Source: Porticoccaceae bacterium
GTDB lineage: Bacteria > Pseudomonadota > Gammaproteobacteria > Pseudomonadales > Porticoccaceae
Direction of reading: 5' to 3'
Assembly: GCA_024639885.1 (NCBI GenBank)
Contig: JAHEGD010000004.1
Coordinates: 171,549-235,548, forward strand
Length of the DNA: 64,000 bases
The notes beneath the pieces are model-generated. The model was not told the DNA's origin. It saw only the letters and a list, made by a program, of their open reading frames with translations, and ran no database searches. Below are positions 1,486 through 13,408 of this stretch, piece after piece. Every line of letters begins with the position of its first letter. The stretch's first letter is position 1. The position numbers were made by a program, and so were the translations under genes.

Positions 1486-2597
1486 TCAGCCGGCCGCCAT
1501 ATTCATCAGCCAGCCGAGCAGCAGCACCTGCGGCAGCGCCACCAGTGGCAGAAACAGCGCAATCTTCCACGACTGGGTTAAATCGCGCAGCACCATCACC
1601 TCGGTGTAATCGGTGGCCACCCCGGCCATCAGGAAGGTAAAGCCGTTGCCCGGTGCTGCGGCGCGCACCACGATATCGGCGGCGATCGGCGTCGAGCCCT
1701 CCGAGCAGACCTCGATAATGGTCGCCGCCAGCAACGTTGCCAGCAGCCCCAACACGGTCGGGCCAAACCACAGCTGGTAGCTCTCCAGCGGCACCAGCGC
1801 GCGCACCGCCACCGCCAGCAAGACGCCAAAGAACAGCCAGCGAAAGACCATCTTCGAGCCGCGCAGACCATCCAGCAGCAGCGCGCCAAATCCGCCCCAG
1901 CTCTTCTCGGCAGCGCGCCAACTGCTGGCCACCAGTGACGCCACGCCAACCGCCGGCTGGTCGCTGGGCGGCTGGCTGTTGGGGTTGGCGGCGAGCGTGC
2001 CGCGCGCCACCAAGCGGTCAAAAATCACCCCAGAGAGCACCCCGATCAGCATCGAGCCGGCGATAAACAGCAGTGTCCAGCTCCAGCCGATCAGTGCGAT
2101 CAACACCACCGTCAGCGACAGCGAGTTCCACGGGCTGGCGATCAAAAACGCCATCAACTGGCCGAGGCTGGCGCCGCGCTGGTAGAGCTTGGTGCCAACC
2201 ATCAAGATACCGTGGCTGCACAGATCGAGCAGCACACCGGCCAGCGTCGCCCGCCAGACGCCGGCCAGAGTGCCGCCGCGCCCAAGCAGACCGATAATCA
2301 ACTCCTGCGGCAGCCGCTCGAGCAGGCCGACAAAAAAGATCGCCATCAACAGCCCCCACCACATGGTGTTGATTAGCTCAAAGACGCCGCCGCTGGCGGT
2401 CGCCAGCCACGCCGGCAGCGCGCTGTCGGCGCCGGCTAACAGCGCCACCAAGTAGAGCAGGCCAACCCCGCTGGCCCCAAACCGCAGCAGGTAGTCGGGC
2501 CGCGCCGCCGGCTGCTCGCAACAGCTGGCGCCGCCCGGCGCCGCCGCTATCGGGCTATTTTTAGGTGGCTGTTCAGGCTGTTCACAGCAGTTGCTCA
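1486..2597 (-). CDS. PF03773-type permease (SO_0444-like Cu/Zn efflux / ArsP_1 family) with Cys-rich N-terminus
   Basis: Multi-TM ORF MSNCCEQPEQPP...CCEQP...ELINTMWWGLLMAIFFVGLLERLPQELIIGLLG...LCSHGILMVGTKLYQRGASLGQLMAFLIASPWNSLSLT; ATG at 2597 preferred over upstream GTG. Confidence 0.75.
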
Positions 2598-2721
2598 TCG
2601 CGCATCGCTCCACGGCGGCTGCCGCCCGGCGGGGCGGCGAGGATTTTTATTCACTGCGTACTATAATGGCCGCCACAGCGCCGCCGCGCAATGGCGGTGC
2701 GACCACCACAAGAGCCCTGAT

Positions 2722-4122
2722 ATGCTGCACTCCGCCATCCGCCCTCTCGTCCGCGCCGCCAGTCTTACCGGGCTGGCGGGCCTCTCGCCGGCCGCTCTAG
2801 CCGCGCCGCTCGACCTGTTTCGCTACGCCGACGGCTCGACCAACTGGCAGTATGTCTCCAACACCAGCGGCTCGCTGCTGATTATCGCGCTCTCCTACGT
2901 GGTCATTCGGCTGTTTCTGAGCCGCAGCCAGACCCGCCGCTACGCCCGCCAACTGGAAGAGATTCGCGGCCAGCTCGAGGAGCGCGTACAGCAGCGCACC
3001 GCCACCCTCGACGAGTTCAACCAGCTGCTCAAAGAGAGCAACAGCGCGCTCGAGAAAGAGGCCAAACAGCACCAACAGACCGCCCAGCAGCTGGCCCACT
3101 CCGAGCACTACCTAAACAACGTGCTGGCCTCGATGCCGCTAATTTTGATCGGCGTCGACGAGCGCGGCGCGGTCACTCAGTGGAACCGCCGCGCCGCCGA
3201 GATCAGCGGTATCAAAGCCGATCAGGCGATTGGCGCCAATCTCTGGGAGATCTACCCGGCGATCACCGTTCAGCCCGGCCAGGTCAATCAGGCACTCACC
3301 CAGGCCAAAACCGTCACCATCAAACACAGCCAGCGCGGTCAGTACCACTTCGACATCACCATCTACCCGCTGGCCAACAGTGCCGAGCCGGGCGTAGTGT
3401 TGCTGATCGACGACGTCACCGACCGTATTTTGGCCGAGAACAGCTTGGTACAGCGCGATAAAATGTCGTCGATGGGCGAGCTGGCGGCGGTGATGGCGCG
3501 CGACCTCGACAACCCGCTGGCGGCGGTCGACAGCGCACTGGCCGGCGGCGATGCCGACGCCGCGCGGGCGCGCAACCAGCAGGCGCGGGCGATCATTGCC
3601 AATCTGTTGCGCTTTTCGCAGCAGCGCGGTGGCCAGCGCGAATCGATCGAGCTGCCGGCGCTGGTCGACGCCGCCATCGCCGAAGCGCGCCAGCTGCTGT
3701 CGGCGGCCAACGGCCTACTGTTCAGTGATATCACCACCACCACCCATTACACGGACTCTCTGCCGGCAGTCGGCGGCTACCGCGCCGAGCTCGAGCAGGT
3801 GTTGCTGAGCCTGTTCCGGCACGCCTGCTCGGCGCTCGCCGACAGCCCGCAGCCAGCGCTGGCGATCAGCATCGAGCAGCGCAGCGGCGCGCTCTGGCTA
3901 AAGGTCAACTTCGCCGCGGCGCCGCTCAGCGACGACCAGCAGCGGCTGCTGTTCGAGCCCGCCTACCACGGCGACGGCCACGCCGCCGCCAGCCTAGATG
4001 CCGGCGAGCGACTGTCGTTTGCTCACTTTATTGTCTGCGAGCAACACGCCGGCAACCTGGCGGTCACCTCTCACCCCGATCACGGCACCAGCTTCCACCT
4101 GCGCCTGCCACTCGCCCCGTAG
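2722..4122 (+). CDS. Membrane PAS-domain histidine kinase-like protein with degenerate catalytic motifs
   Basis: N-terminal TM, coiled coil, PAS (ASMPLILIGVDERGAVTQWNRRAAEISG), HisKA-like DKMSSMGELAAVMARDLDNPLAAV, HATPase-like C-terminus ending HGTSFHLRLPL. Confidence 0.85.
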   Translation: MLHSAIRPLVRAASLTGLAGLSPAALAAPLDLFRYADGSTNWQYVSNTSGSLLIIALSYVVIRLFLSRSQTRRYARQLEEIRGQLEERVQQRTATLDEFNQLLKESNSALEKEAKQHQQTAQQLAHSEHYLNNVLASMPLILIGVDERGAVTQWNRRAAEISGIKADQAIGANLWEIYPAITVQPGQVNQALTQAKTVTIKHSQRGQYHFDITIYPLANSAEPGVVLLIDDVTDRILAENSLVQRDKMSSMGELAAVMARDLDNPLAAVDSALAGGDADAARARNQQARAIIANLLRFSQQRGGQRESIELPALVDAAIAEARQLLSAANGLLFSDITTTTHYTDSLPAVGGYRAELEQVLLSLFRHACSALADSPQPALAISIEQRSGALWLKVNFAAAPLSDDQQRLLFEPAYHGDGHAAASLDAGERLSFAHFIVCEQHAGNLAVTSHPDHGTSFHLRLPLAP

Positions 4123-9740: not shown

Positions 9741-9935
9741 TTAGAAGAAGTTAGCCAGATAGCCCTGGCTTACCGCGATACCGCGCGCCAACACACCCAG
9801 CCCAACCACCACCACGGCTAGGATTGCGGCCAGCACCCAGCCGCGGAACGGCTTCTTTTCAGTTTGGTTGTGACCGCTGTGCAACACGGCATTGACGCGG
9901 GCTTGGTCCTCGTCGCTGAGACGCGCTTCACTCAT
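9741..9935 (-). CDS. DUF3094-family small membrane protein
   Basis: MSEARLSDEDQARVNAVLHSGHNQTEKKPFRGWVLAAILAVVVVGLGVLARGIAVSQGYLANFF; start overlaps bioD stop. Confidence 0.75.
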   Translation of the reverse strand: MSEARLSDEDQARVNAVLHSGHNQTEKKPFRGWVLAAILAVVVVGLGVLARGIAVSQGYLANFF

Positions 9936-10671
9936 AACAACTCTCCACAATCGGTTGGTGATCCAGATACTCGGCCAGCGCAGTGGCGCTGGGCTCCTGC
10001 AGGTGTGGCACGACCCCCCAGCAGGGGGCCGGCAACAGCGCCCGCAGGGTGGCGATATTCTCCTCCAGCCGGGCCGTGTCGGGATCGATAATATTGGCCA
10101 CCCAGCCAACAATTTGCAAGCCGTCACGGGCGATCGCCTCGGCGGTCAGCAGCGCGTGGCTGATGCAACCGAGCCGCACCCCGACCACCAGCACCACTTT
10201 GCAGTCGAGCGCCGCCGGCAGCGCCGCCAAACTCTCGCGCGGGTTGAGCGGCACGCGCCAGCCACCGGCCCCCTCGACCAGCGCCACATCGGCCGGGGTC
10301 AGCAGCGCACCGCGGCAGTAGCCGGCAAGCTTCTCGACGGTCAAATTGAGACCCGCCTCGGCGGCGGCGAGGTGTGGGGCGATCGCCGGTTGCAGCGCCA
10401 CCGGGTTGACCTGCTGGTAGTCGAGCGCCACGCTGGCGGCCGCCTGCAGGGCCAGCGCGTCGCTGTTGCGCAGACCGTCTTCGCTCTGTTCACAGCCGGC
10501 GGCGACTGGCTTTAGCGCCAGCGTGGTCAGGCCGTGGCGGTTGAGCAGCGTCAACAGCGCGGCGGCGACTTCAGTCTTGCCGACATCGGTATCGGTGCCG
10601 GTGACAAACCAGCGCTGGCGACGGCGCACTCGGCGCTCATCGGCTGTGGTGGTATCGGCTCGTTGACTCAT
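9928..10671 (-). CDS. bioD: Dethiobiotin synthase
   Basis: FVTGTDTDVGKTEVAAALL...LKPVAAGCEQ...LVEGAGGWRVPL. Confidence 0.96.
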   Translation of the reverse strand: MSQRADTTTADERRVRRRQRWFVTGTDTDVGKTEVAAALLTLLNRHGLTTLALKPVAAGCEQSEDGLRNSDALALQAAASVALDYQQVNPVALQPAIAPHLAAAEAGLNLTVEKLAGYCRGALLTPADVALVEGAGGWRVPLNPRESLAALPAALDCKVVLVVGVRLGCISHALLTAEAIARDGLQIVGWVANIIDPDTARLEENIATLRALLPAPCWGVVPHLQEPSATALAEYLDHQPIVESCYE

Positions 10672-10679
10672 CGGCACTC

Positions 10680-12212
10680 CTAACTGGGCTGGGGCGATGG
10701 CAGCCGAACCGCGCGACCGCGCAGTACCTGCCAGCTGGCTTGGCAACTGCCATCAGCGGCAGTCGGGTAGTGGTCGTAGAGCGCGGCGATACGCTGGCGA
10801 CCGGTCAGTTTGCGGCTGCGCTCGCGGTGGCTGTTGTGGGCGCCGACCGCTTTGATCGACTGCAGCAGCGCGCGCACCGAGCTGTGACGTTCGCTGTGCT
10901 GGTAGACGGCGAGCTGATCGACGGCAAAGCCGGCCGCGGCCAGCGCACTGCACCAGCGCTGCGGGGTGGCAAATTGATTGATGTGGACCTGCTCGTCGAC
11001 CGCCGCCCAGGCCGCCCGCAGTTCGGCGAGGGTACCGGCCACCGGCACTGCCAGCAGCAGCTCGCCACCCGGCTCCACCACCCGCGCCAGCTCGACGGCG
11101 AGCTGCTCGAGCTGCTCACACCACTGCAGCGCAAAACTACTGAAGGCAACCGCGACCGAACGATCGGCGAGCGGCAGCGCCTCGGCGTCGGCGCAGATGA
11201 GGCCGACATCGACAGTGGCGGTACTCGCCGCCTGCTGCAGCATCCCCTCGGCGATATCGAGCCCGACCAGTTCGGCGCCGGCAAAGCGGCTGCCCAGCGC
11301 CGCCAACTGCACGCCGCTGGCAGTGCCGATATCGACCACCCGGCGCGGCTGTTGGACGGCGCTGTCGGCCAGCAGCTGCTCGGCGACGGCGGCCTGCAGC
11401 GTGGCAGCGACGGCGTAGCCGGGCGCCGCGCGGCTAAAGCTCTCTGCCACGGCGCGCTTGTCGAGCTGCGGGCGCAGGCCGGCGCTACCCAATAGCTGCT
11501 CGACCAGCCCGACAATCTGGCCGGGCGCCGCCAGTGGCAGAAAATGGCCGCCGGCACAGCGCTGGCAGGTGATATCGGGAAAGATGGTGGCGATGCGCTC
11601 TGCAGCGGCGACCGGTACCAAGTTGTCGTCGTCGCCAAACAGCATCGCCACCGGCAGCCCGCTCGCCGCCAACTGGCCGGCCGCCGCGACTAGACAGAGC
11701 TCGCCGAGCAGGCCGAGCTGGTCGGCACCGGCGGCGACCGCGGGCGGCAGCGGCAGCACAGCGGCCAGCTGCTTTTTAACGGAGCGCTGGCCGCCGCTGG
11801 CGAGCGCCGAAAAGCGCGCAATGGTCGCCGCTGGGGCGTCGCGGTAGCTGTCGACAAAGCTCGCCAGTGTCGCCGTTGGCAGCGCGGTCGGCCACTCTGG
11901 GCGGGCCACGAAGCTCAAGTTGCTGGCCACGGTCACGACCCCCGCCAGCAGCCCCGGCCGGCGCGCCGCCAGCGCCAGCGCCAACATGCCGCCCAGTGAA
12001 AACCCGACCAGCAGTGCGCGCGCGGGCAGCCGCGCGGCCAGCCAGTCCAGATAGCTCTCCAGCGAACCATCGCCAACCATCGGCTCGCTGCCGTAGCCGG
12101 GCAGGTCGAGCGCGCGGACTGGGCCAAACTGGGCCAGCAGTGGCTGCACTGTCGCCCAGCAGCGGCTGTTGCCACCCCAGCCGTGCAGCAGCACGATCGG
12201 CGTCTGCGCCAT
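10680..12212 (-). CDS. bioHC: Bifunctional BioH carboxylesterase / BioC malonyl-ACP O-methyltransferase fusion
   Basis: N-half alpha/beta hydrolase (LLHGWGGNSRCW, LLVGFSLGGMLAL, FGDDDNLVP, GGHFLP), C-half SAM methyltransferase (VVDIGTASGVQLAALGSRFAGAELVGLDIAEGML); one uninterrupted frame. Confidence 0.93.
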   Translation of the reverse strand: MAQTPIVLLHGWGGNSRCWATVQPLLAQFGPVRALDLPGYGSEPMVGDGSLESYLDWLAARLPARALLVGFSLGGMLALALAARRPGLLAGVVTVASNLSFVARPEWPTALPTATLASFVDSYRDAPAATIARFSALASGGQRSVKKQLAAVLPLPPAVAAGADQLGLLGELCLVAAAGQLAASGLPVAMLFGDDDNLVPVAAAERIATIFPDITCQRCAGGHFLPLAAPGQIVGLVEQLLGSAGLRPQLDKRAVAESFSRAAPGYAVAATLQAAVAEQLLADSAVQQPRRVVDIGTASGVQLAALGSRFAGAELVGLDIAEGMLQQAASTATVDVGLICADAEALPLADRSVAVAFSSFALQWCEQLEQLAVELARVVEPGGELLLAVPVAGTLAELRAAWAAVDEQVHINQFATPQRWCSALAAAGFAVDQLAVYQHSERHSSVRALLQSIKAVGAHNSHRERSRKLTGRQRIAALYDHYPTAADGSCQASWQVLRGRAVRLPSPQPS

Positions 12213-13408
12213 CAGCCGCGCCGCTCCGCCAATGCCTCGCCGCTGCAGAGCTGGCCGAGCGCCTCGAGTAGACGGTCGACGTCGCTGCGGCTGTGCGCTG
12301 CGGTCAGTGTGATACGCAGCCGGGCGCTGCCGACCGCCACGGTCGGCGGACGGATCGCGCCGACCCACAGGCCGCGCCGGCGCAACTCAGCATCGATCGC
12401 CATCAACTCGGCTTCACCGCCGATCAACAGCGGCTGTATCGCCGTCTGCGACGGCAGCAGTGGCAGCCCGAGCTGATCGCCGGCGGTGCGGAAATAGCTG
12501 ATCAACTCGTTGAGCTGGTCGCGCCGCCAACGCTCGTCGCGGAGCAGCCGCAGCGCCGCCAGGCTGGCCGCGGCGATCGCCGGTGGCTGCGCCGTGGTGT
12601 AGATATAGCTGCGCGAGAACTGCAGCAGCGATTCGATCAAGGTCTCACTGCCGGCGACAAAGGCGCCGTAGCTGCCGAACGATTTGCCGAGCGTGCCAAC
12701 CAGCACCGGCACCTGCGCGGCGCTCAGCCCGAGCTGCTCGACCAGCCCGCCGCCGTTGGCACCGAGCAGACCAAAGCCGTGCGCGTCGTCGACCATCAGC
12801 GTGGCACCCCGATCGCTGCAGAGCGCCGCCAGATCGGTCAGTGGTGCGCAGTCGCCATCCATGCTGAACACCCCGTCGGTGGCGACCAGAGTCGCCCCCT
12901 GCCCGCTCTGGTGGCTGGCCAGCTGGCGCGCAGCGGAGTCGACATCGGCGTGTCGGTAGCGCTTGCTGGTCGCCTTGCAGAGCAGCCCGCCATCAATCAG
13001 CGAGGCGTGGTTGAGCGAATCTTGAAGCAGTAGGTCGGGGCGTTCGAGCAGCGCATTGATCGTACCCATATTGGCGGCGTAACCGCTGCCAAACAGTAGC
13101 GCGCGCGGCCGCCCAGTGAACTCGGCGAGCGCCTCTTCGAGCTCGGCGTGGGCGCGGTGGTGTCCGCTGATCAGATGTGAAGCGCCGGCGCCGGTGCCGT
13201 AGCGCTGCAGCGCATCGGTCGCGGCCGCCGCCAGCGCCGGGTGGCCGGCCAGCCCCAGGTAGTCGTTGCTGGCAAAACAGAGCTGTTCGACGCCGGCCAG
13301 TGCCATCTGCGCGCCACAGCGACCGCGGCTGGCGTAGCGCTGGCGGCTGCGCTGTTGGCTGGCGCGCTCGGCGAGCCGCTGGCGCAGCCTAGCGTCTAAG
13401 TCGACCAC
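12212..13408 (-). CDS. bioF: 8-amino-7-oxononanoate synthase
   Basis: FASNDYLGLAGHP...GTGAGASHLISGHH...DDAHGFGLLG...GTLGKSFGSYGAFVAGS; 1-nt overlap with bioHC. Confidence 0.96.
   Translation of the reverse strand: MVDLDARLRQRLAERASQQRSRQRYASRGRCGAQMALAGVEQLCFASNDYLGLAGHPALAAAATDALQRYGTGAGASHLISGHHRAHAELEEALAEFTGRPRALLFGSGYAANMGTINALLERPDLLLQDSLNHASLIDGGLLCKATSKRYRHADVDSAARQLASHQSGQGATLVATDGVFSMDGDCAPLTDLAALCSDRGATLMVDDAHGFGLLGANGGGLVEQLGLSAAQVPVLVGTLGKSFGSYGAFVAGSETLIESLLQFSRSYIYTTAQPPAIAAASLAALRLLRDERWRRDQLNELISYFRTAGDQLGLPLLPSQTAIQPLLIGGEAELMAIDAELRRRGLWVGAIRPPTVAVGSARLRITLTAAHSRSDVDRLLEALGQLCSGEALAERRG

Follow-up and report, generated by a model that had tools for sequence, protein, structure and literature searches.

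The question raised by this locus is whether a gene with the layout of a PAS histidine kinase and degraded catalytic motifs encodes a maintained, noncatalytic sensor, as the first-pass annotation proposed, or is decaying. The gene lies in a 64,000-nucleotide stretch of Porticoccaceae DNA (the window) and has the following features.

2722..4122, + strand: pseudo-histidine-kinase gene, 466 aa, stop codon at 4120-4122 (open reading frame and translation; Pfam PAS and HATPase_c)
2722..2925, + strand: aa 1-68, signal-like N terminus, ~20-residue periplasmic signature DGSTNWQYVSNTSG and a single transmembrane (TM) helix (alignment and column counts; topology inferred from sequence)
2926..3099, + strand: aa 69-126, signalling coiled coil (part of a single continuous helix, 42-136, in the model)
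3100..3459, + strand: aa 127-246, PAS domain (Pfam PAS_4/PAS; model)
3460..3636, + strand: aa 247-305, degenerate DHp hairpin with Arg260 at the acceptor column (HisKA under the cut-off)
3637..4119, + strand: aa 306-466, degenerate CA (ATPase-fold) domain with His367, FAAAP and DAGERLS (HATPase_c, 27.9 bits; model)

The reading frame from 2722 to 4122 on the plus strand is uninterrupted over its 466 aa and is thus open, as had been annotated. The accompanying view that the PAS domain, coiled coil, TM helix and C-terminal fold are all kept agrees with the domain matches and with the predicted structure. In Pfam searches, the window protein scores just above threshold for HATPase_c (27.9 bits; cut-off, 26.4) and below it for HisKA (9.4 bits; cut-off, 26.9). 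Its AlphaFold2 model has a mean pLDDT of 81.9, and the cores of PAS, DHp and CA are confidently predicted. The CA domain is predicted as an alpha/beta sandwich with a core pLDDT of ~90 and a disordered lid (residues 416 to 423, pLDDT below 50). Foldseek matches to the model are histidine kinase structures, among them ThkA (3a0r), HK853, ZraS, DivL (4q20) and the NifL-NifA complex (9qq6). The fold of the window protein is therefore predicted to be intact and histidine kinase-like.

We compared the catalytic motifs with those of canonical relatives. The H-box reads MSSMGELAAVMARDLDNPLAAV, with codons ATG GCG CGC GAC at positions 3493 to 3504; Arg260 (CGC, 3499 to 3501) occupies the phospho-acceptor column, which holds His in 23/23 canonical relatives. 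This bears out the replacement of the acceptor His by Arg described in the first-pass annotation, and alignment revealed no other His of the window protein in register with that column. The annotated Asn-to-His change in the N-box (LEQVLLSLFRHACSAL) is likewise real: His367 stands at the Asn column, and the alignment contains no alternative Asn in register. G1 reads VNFAAAPLS (FAAAP) and, as had been noted, lacks DxGxG. Two further losses were absent from that annotation. The G2 box is DAGERLS, compared to GTGLGLS in canonical relatives, and the DHp hairpin is unusually short, at 33 residues versus 69. The N-box Asn normally coordinates Mg-ATP and the G1 Asp contacts adenine (PMC10017428). Judged from its alignment, the window protein is without every residue required for ATP binding or phosphorylation.

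The gene is single copy in the window genome, where the sole other match is a distant kinase with 26% identity. A 77% identical copy is found in a genome of the same genus (G001) and in LSUCC0057, a cultured isolate of the SAR92 clade (PMC6588378). This copy has Arg at the acceptor position, His at the N-box, FFGQL at G1 and DAGERLS at G2. Orthologues occur across Porticoccaceae/SAR92, Marinobacterium, Nitrincola, Teredinibacter, Dasania and others, including 5 of 369 genomes sampled over the class outside the order of the window genome, and reading frames are intact in all loci examined. An extremely diverged orthologue (L027, in genome G003 of the window's own family) has Gly at the acceptor position, HPAP at G1, GPGERLS at G2 and a branch length of 2.85. 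The GTGLGL of one locus (L159) sits at a contig end and was set aside as a likely chimera. No prior description of this pseudokinase family was found in openly searchable papers; subscription journals may hold one. Pseudo-histidine kinases are already known, and this family of them appears to be new.

To place the losses in order, we aligned 138 proteins and reduced them to 93 representatives (23 canonical and 70 degenerate), removing the motif columns before tree building. A second, careful tree contained 49 rows and left out the long-branch row L027. Every degenerate member falls in a single clade (SH-aLRT of 98 in the tree including L027; bootstrap/SH-aLRT of 100/100 in the 49-row tree, also built with motif columns removed). 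This clade is nested inside the canonical kinases, and its sister is a canonical pair (L024/L110). The acceptor His, the N-box Asn and the G1 Asp are each present in 23/23 canonical representatives, all of which have GTGLGL or GSGLGL at G2. Among the 70 degenerate members, the G1 Asp is found in none (it is replaced by His in 68 and by Phe in 2, both from the window's genus), G1 mostly reads HNG, the N-box Asn is replaced by His, Ser or Tyr in 65, and G2 is xxxxRLS in most. No orthologue with intact motifs was found within the clade. The expectation that the substitutions would be conserved in orthologues thus held for the N-box, G1 and G2 losses, which are clade-wide, but not for Arg260, which is genus specific: 42 of the 70 retain the phospho-acceptor His despite a destroyed ATP site, and the others carry Tyr, Gln, Asn, Arg, Ser or Gly.

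Loss of the G1 Asp maps to one change on the tree, while the acceptor state requires at least 8 changes on the 49-row tree and at least 14 on the 93-row tree. As read from these reconstructions, the order of losses is therefore ATP binding first and the acceptor His afterwards, repeatedly, once the residue had been freed from constraint. With 16 changes, the His column lies near the median, 196 of the 411 columns changing as much or more. The residues flanking the acceptor (G252, E253, A259, D261 and P265) stay fixed in 70/70 members, and on this alignment the loss of constraint at the acceptor column is specific rather than regional. In 23/23 canonical kinases, exactly 69 residues separate the acceptor position from the conserved helix 2 Asn; this spacing is 33 to 59 residues in the degenerate clade and shortest, at 33, in the window's genus. 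The total loss of motifs in the window gene is the endpoint of an ancient, family-wide process and not a peculiarity of this gene; within a pseudokinase family that is conserved and widespread, its product has eroded furthest.

We next considered the H+4 position, where T or N is an important determinant of histidine kinase phosphatase activity (PMC6345502). Fourteen residue types occur in this column, with 35 changes; Asn there is mostly replaced, and T or N persists in a minority of members. One of these is the window protein, which has Asn at H+4 and thus does not share the loss seen across the family. Despite this minority, the lack of constraint across the family argues against a phosphatase-only role.

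Selection was assessed by the Nei-Gojobori method on the window gene and its LSUCC0057 counterpart. The overall dN/dS was 0.30, with values of 0.07 for the periplasmic/TM segment, 0.20 for the coil, 0.12 for PAS, 0.32 for DHp and 0.40 for CA; all are below 1, the outcome anticipated for a maintained gene, and codon bias at 66% GC probably depresses dS and so inflates these ratios. Across the wider alignment, canonical relatives conserve CA more strongly than PAS (median CA/PAS difference ratio, 0.84), and this order is reversed in the degenerate clade (1.08 overall and ~1.9 in close pairs). The ratio of 3.2 for the window pair is high, yet the genus-specific excess is not significant (Fisher P = 0.14, with pairs that are not independent). 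The DHp hairpin shows the same reversal, with mean differences for DHp and PAS of 0.57 and 0.47 in degenerate members versus 0.46 and 0.61 in canonical ones, and its positions H+4, +7, +8 and +11 are highly variable in the family. The best-kept parts are the periplasmic/TM segment, the coil, PAS and the C-terminal CA strands (RLSF...EQHxGxxxVTS...GTTFHIQLP). By column counts, G38, T40, W42, Q43 and N47 of the periplasmic signature are each present in at least 68/69 members, and L85, E86, R88, V89 and R92 of the coiled coil are near-invariant. These patterns indicate that the protein is maintained by selection, with constraint shifted towards its sensory half.

The conserved losses, the dN/dS values and the predicted fold all support a maintained noncatalytic sensor over decay, as the first-pass annotation had favoured. 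We consider it probable that the window protein is maintained, noncatalytic and acts by protein contact. The gene could instead be heading for loss, with the N-terminal half alone, or nothing, still mattering. The higher dN/dS of CA (0.40) than of PAS (0.12), the absence of an ortholog from some genomes of the window's family and the very divergent copy in G003 would fit such a relic, and the weak CA constraint in the window's genus means that the CA domain might be disappearing there. We nevertheless give a relic a low probability, considering that CA dN/dS is itself below 1, that the Fisher test above gives no significant excess of CA divergence for this genus relative to other degenerate pairs, that frames are intact in all loci examined and that the degenerate HNG/RLS motif persists across many genera and outside the order. 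A sequencing, assembly or frameshift artefact has a negligible chance of explaining the losses. We found nothing in its support, the frame is open, and substitutions of identical type occur in the independently sequenced LSUCC0057; since that sister species shares them at 77% identity, they are not due to chance, sequencing or assembly error.

Two other readings would leave the transmitter with more of its usual work. One is an atypical but active kinase or phosphatase that relies on residues that have migrated, or on a different nucleotide or acceptor. ATP binding by VanS kinases is only weak, with a noncanonical G1, and an Asp-to-Asn change at G1 of VanS is compatible with kinase activity (PMC10017428); the HATPase_c score of the window protein also stays just over the Pfam cut-off. 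Activity of this kind is nonetheless very unlikely here, because the acceptor His, the Mg ligand, the adenine contact and the glycine lid are all missing together, no substitute His or Asn is in register, and H+4 is unconstrained across the family. As 42/70 family members still have His and most have HNG at G1, some of them may be left with a weak or trans-phosphorylated function, of which the window protein could make no use. The other reading is that the transmitter fold has been retained as a docking site for a (phosphorylated) response regulator whose information it relays, for which DivL is the precedent (PMC4211667). The structural matches include DivL (4q20), and the H-box core is invariant, but we regard such a reader as improbable: DHp is the least conserved part relative to PAS, positions H+4, +7, +8 and +11 vary strongly, the hairpin length drifts between 33 and 59 residues, and there is no linked response regulator.

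For the protein that acts by contact, the proposed mechanism begins with a membrane-anchored PAS sensor, presumably dimeric, whose transmitter half would have no normal ATP binding, autophosphorylation or standard response-regulator phosphatase action. Signals arriving at PAS and at the short DGxTNWQY segment in the periplasm would shift the coiled coil and transmitter into another conformation, which in turn would bind a partner protein differently. In the family, the DHp surface that faces response regulators is not conserved, whereas the membrane segment, coil, PAS and CA strands are kept, which favours association with a kinase or a NifL-like CA contact over a reader of the DivL type. By analogy with RocA-CovS or ChrS-HrrS, the contact may be with another membrane sensor kinase through the membrane/coil half, a tentative assignment falling somewhat short of an even chance; by analogy with NifL-NifA, it is less probably a contact of the CA domain with a cytosolic regulator. 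It is possible, if rather doubtful, that the clade has turned the Bergerat ATP site into a conserved nonnucleotide docking module (signature RHA / HNG / RLSF...EQHxG...GTTFHIQLP) driven by the periplasmic DGxTNWQY sensor; across a broad range of marine gammaproteobacteria, the kinase fold would then do nothing but relay conformational change.

The genomic neighbourhood was searched for partners. In agreement with the first-pass annotation, no response regulator lies near the gene; the nearest on the contig is ~105 kb off, and a cognate regulator encoded farther away is possible. The receiver model for this search was built from the window genome's own regulators, and that genome holds 12 receivers, 7 HisKA matches and 15 HATPase_c matches (the last including non-kinase ATPases). 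Among degenerate loci, an adjacent response regulator is found only at L102, with L083, L101 and L105 having one ~5 kb away. The L102 neighbour (1625-2242), a MerR-like HTH plus receiver protein beside the pseudokinase, is a possible partner lead. The DGxTNWQY segment is confined to the pseudokinase family at one copy per genome, and a segment search gave no second protein sharing it that might serve as a partner. A canonical paralogue, present in G046, G057, G098, G332 and G081, was rejected as an obligate partner, being absent from the window genome.

Neighbours differ between lineages. At the window locus they are a divergent SO_0444/ArsP-like permease and a YbbP-YbbA-TesA group. The permease (1486-2613, minus strand) is SO_0444/SaoE/ArsP_1-like with a Cys-rich N terminus and scores well under NCBIfam cut-offs; at 13 loci such a permease is divergently oriented relative to the pseudokinase. 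SelO, a protein-kinase-fold AMPylating enzyme, lies upstream of the pseudokinase, directly or one gene further, at L011-L017, L041, L059-L064, L068-L072 and other SAR92 loci, where DUF411 and FetB-like genes recur upstream; its proximity is probably a coincidence. A metal function suggested by these neighbours (the permease, and DUF411 and FetB-like genes in other SAR92 lineages) was rejected, as Porticoccus-type loci carry unrelated AtoE-like genes. Elsewhere in the window is a compact biotin cluster, in which a BioH-BioC fusion (10680-12368, minus strand; BioH at aa 56-265, BioC at aa 310-553) is followed next by bioD (9928-10746, minus strand).

Characterized proteins resemble the window protein in part. 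DivL of Caulobacter is a PAS sensor with a histidine kinase fold, a non-His acceptor and poor nucleotide binding that is kept by selection, but it is alphaproteobacterial, has a Tyr (or Ala) acceptor and several PAS domains, and its partner is DivK~P (PMC4211667). The window protein has Arg, one PAS, no intact motif and a variable DHp, and belongs to SAR92-type gammaproteobacteria. The CA motifs of DivL are far less eroded. RocA of group A Streptococcus is a membrane histidine kinase homologue with a degenerate CA domain and no response regulator of its own that acts on CovS; it differs in its six TM segments (one predicted TM helix in the window protein), its Firmicute lineage and its retention of a dispensable His (PMC7028121). 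The ChrS frameshift pseudokinase is also catalytically dead and works through a heterodimer with its active paralogue HrrS (PMC9491836), but it is recent and laboratory evolved with the paralogue present, whereas the window case is ancient and natural, with no close paralogue in the genome. NifL combines PAS, an H-domain and a GHKL domain and controls its partner through direct binding; the Klebsiella pneumoniae protein has lost ATP/ADP-binding features, while that of Azotobacter vinelandii still binds ADP (PMC9866876). NifL is cytosolic, usually has two PAS domains (FAD) and acts on NifA, and no NifA-type gene was found among the pseudokinase neighbours.

The nearest active-looking relatives (AtoS-like score, 109 bits; cut-off, 646) are the canonical PAS kinases L024, L110, L025 and L183-L199, which share the domain order and, in L024 and L110, a DGSTNWQY periplasmic segment with the degenerate family. 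Unlike that family, they keep the His, the N-box Asn, the G1 Asp, GTGLGL/GSGLGL and the 69-residue hairpin. The canonical sister L024 and the more distant canonical L025 each lie immediately upstream of a queD-like gene.

Few natural pseudo-histidine kinases have been characterized, DivL and RocA being the main cases that we found. The family described here is old, widespread and single copy. Its sister kinases are intact and serve as a baseline against which the order of losses can be read directly. Marine two-component censuses likely count such proteins among ordinary sensor kinases. The family is a test case for kinase-fold signalling without phosphate.
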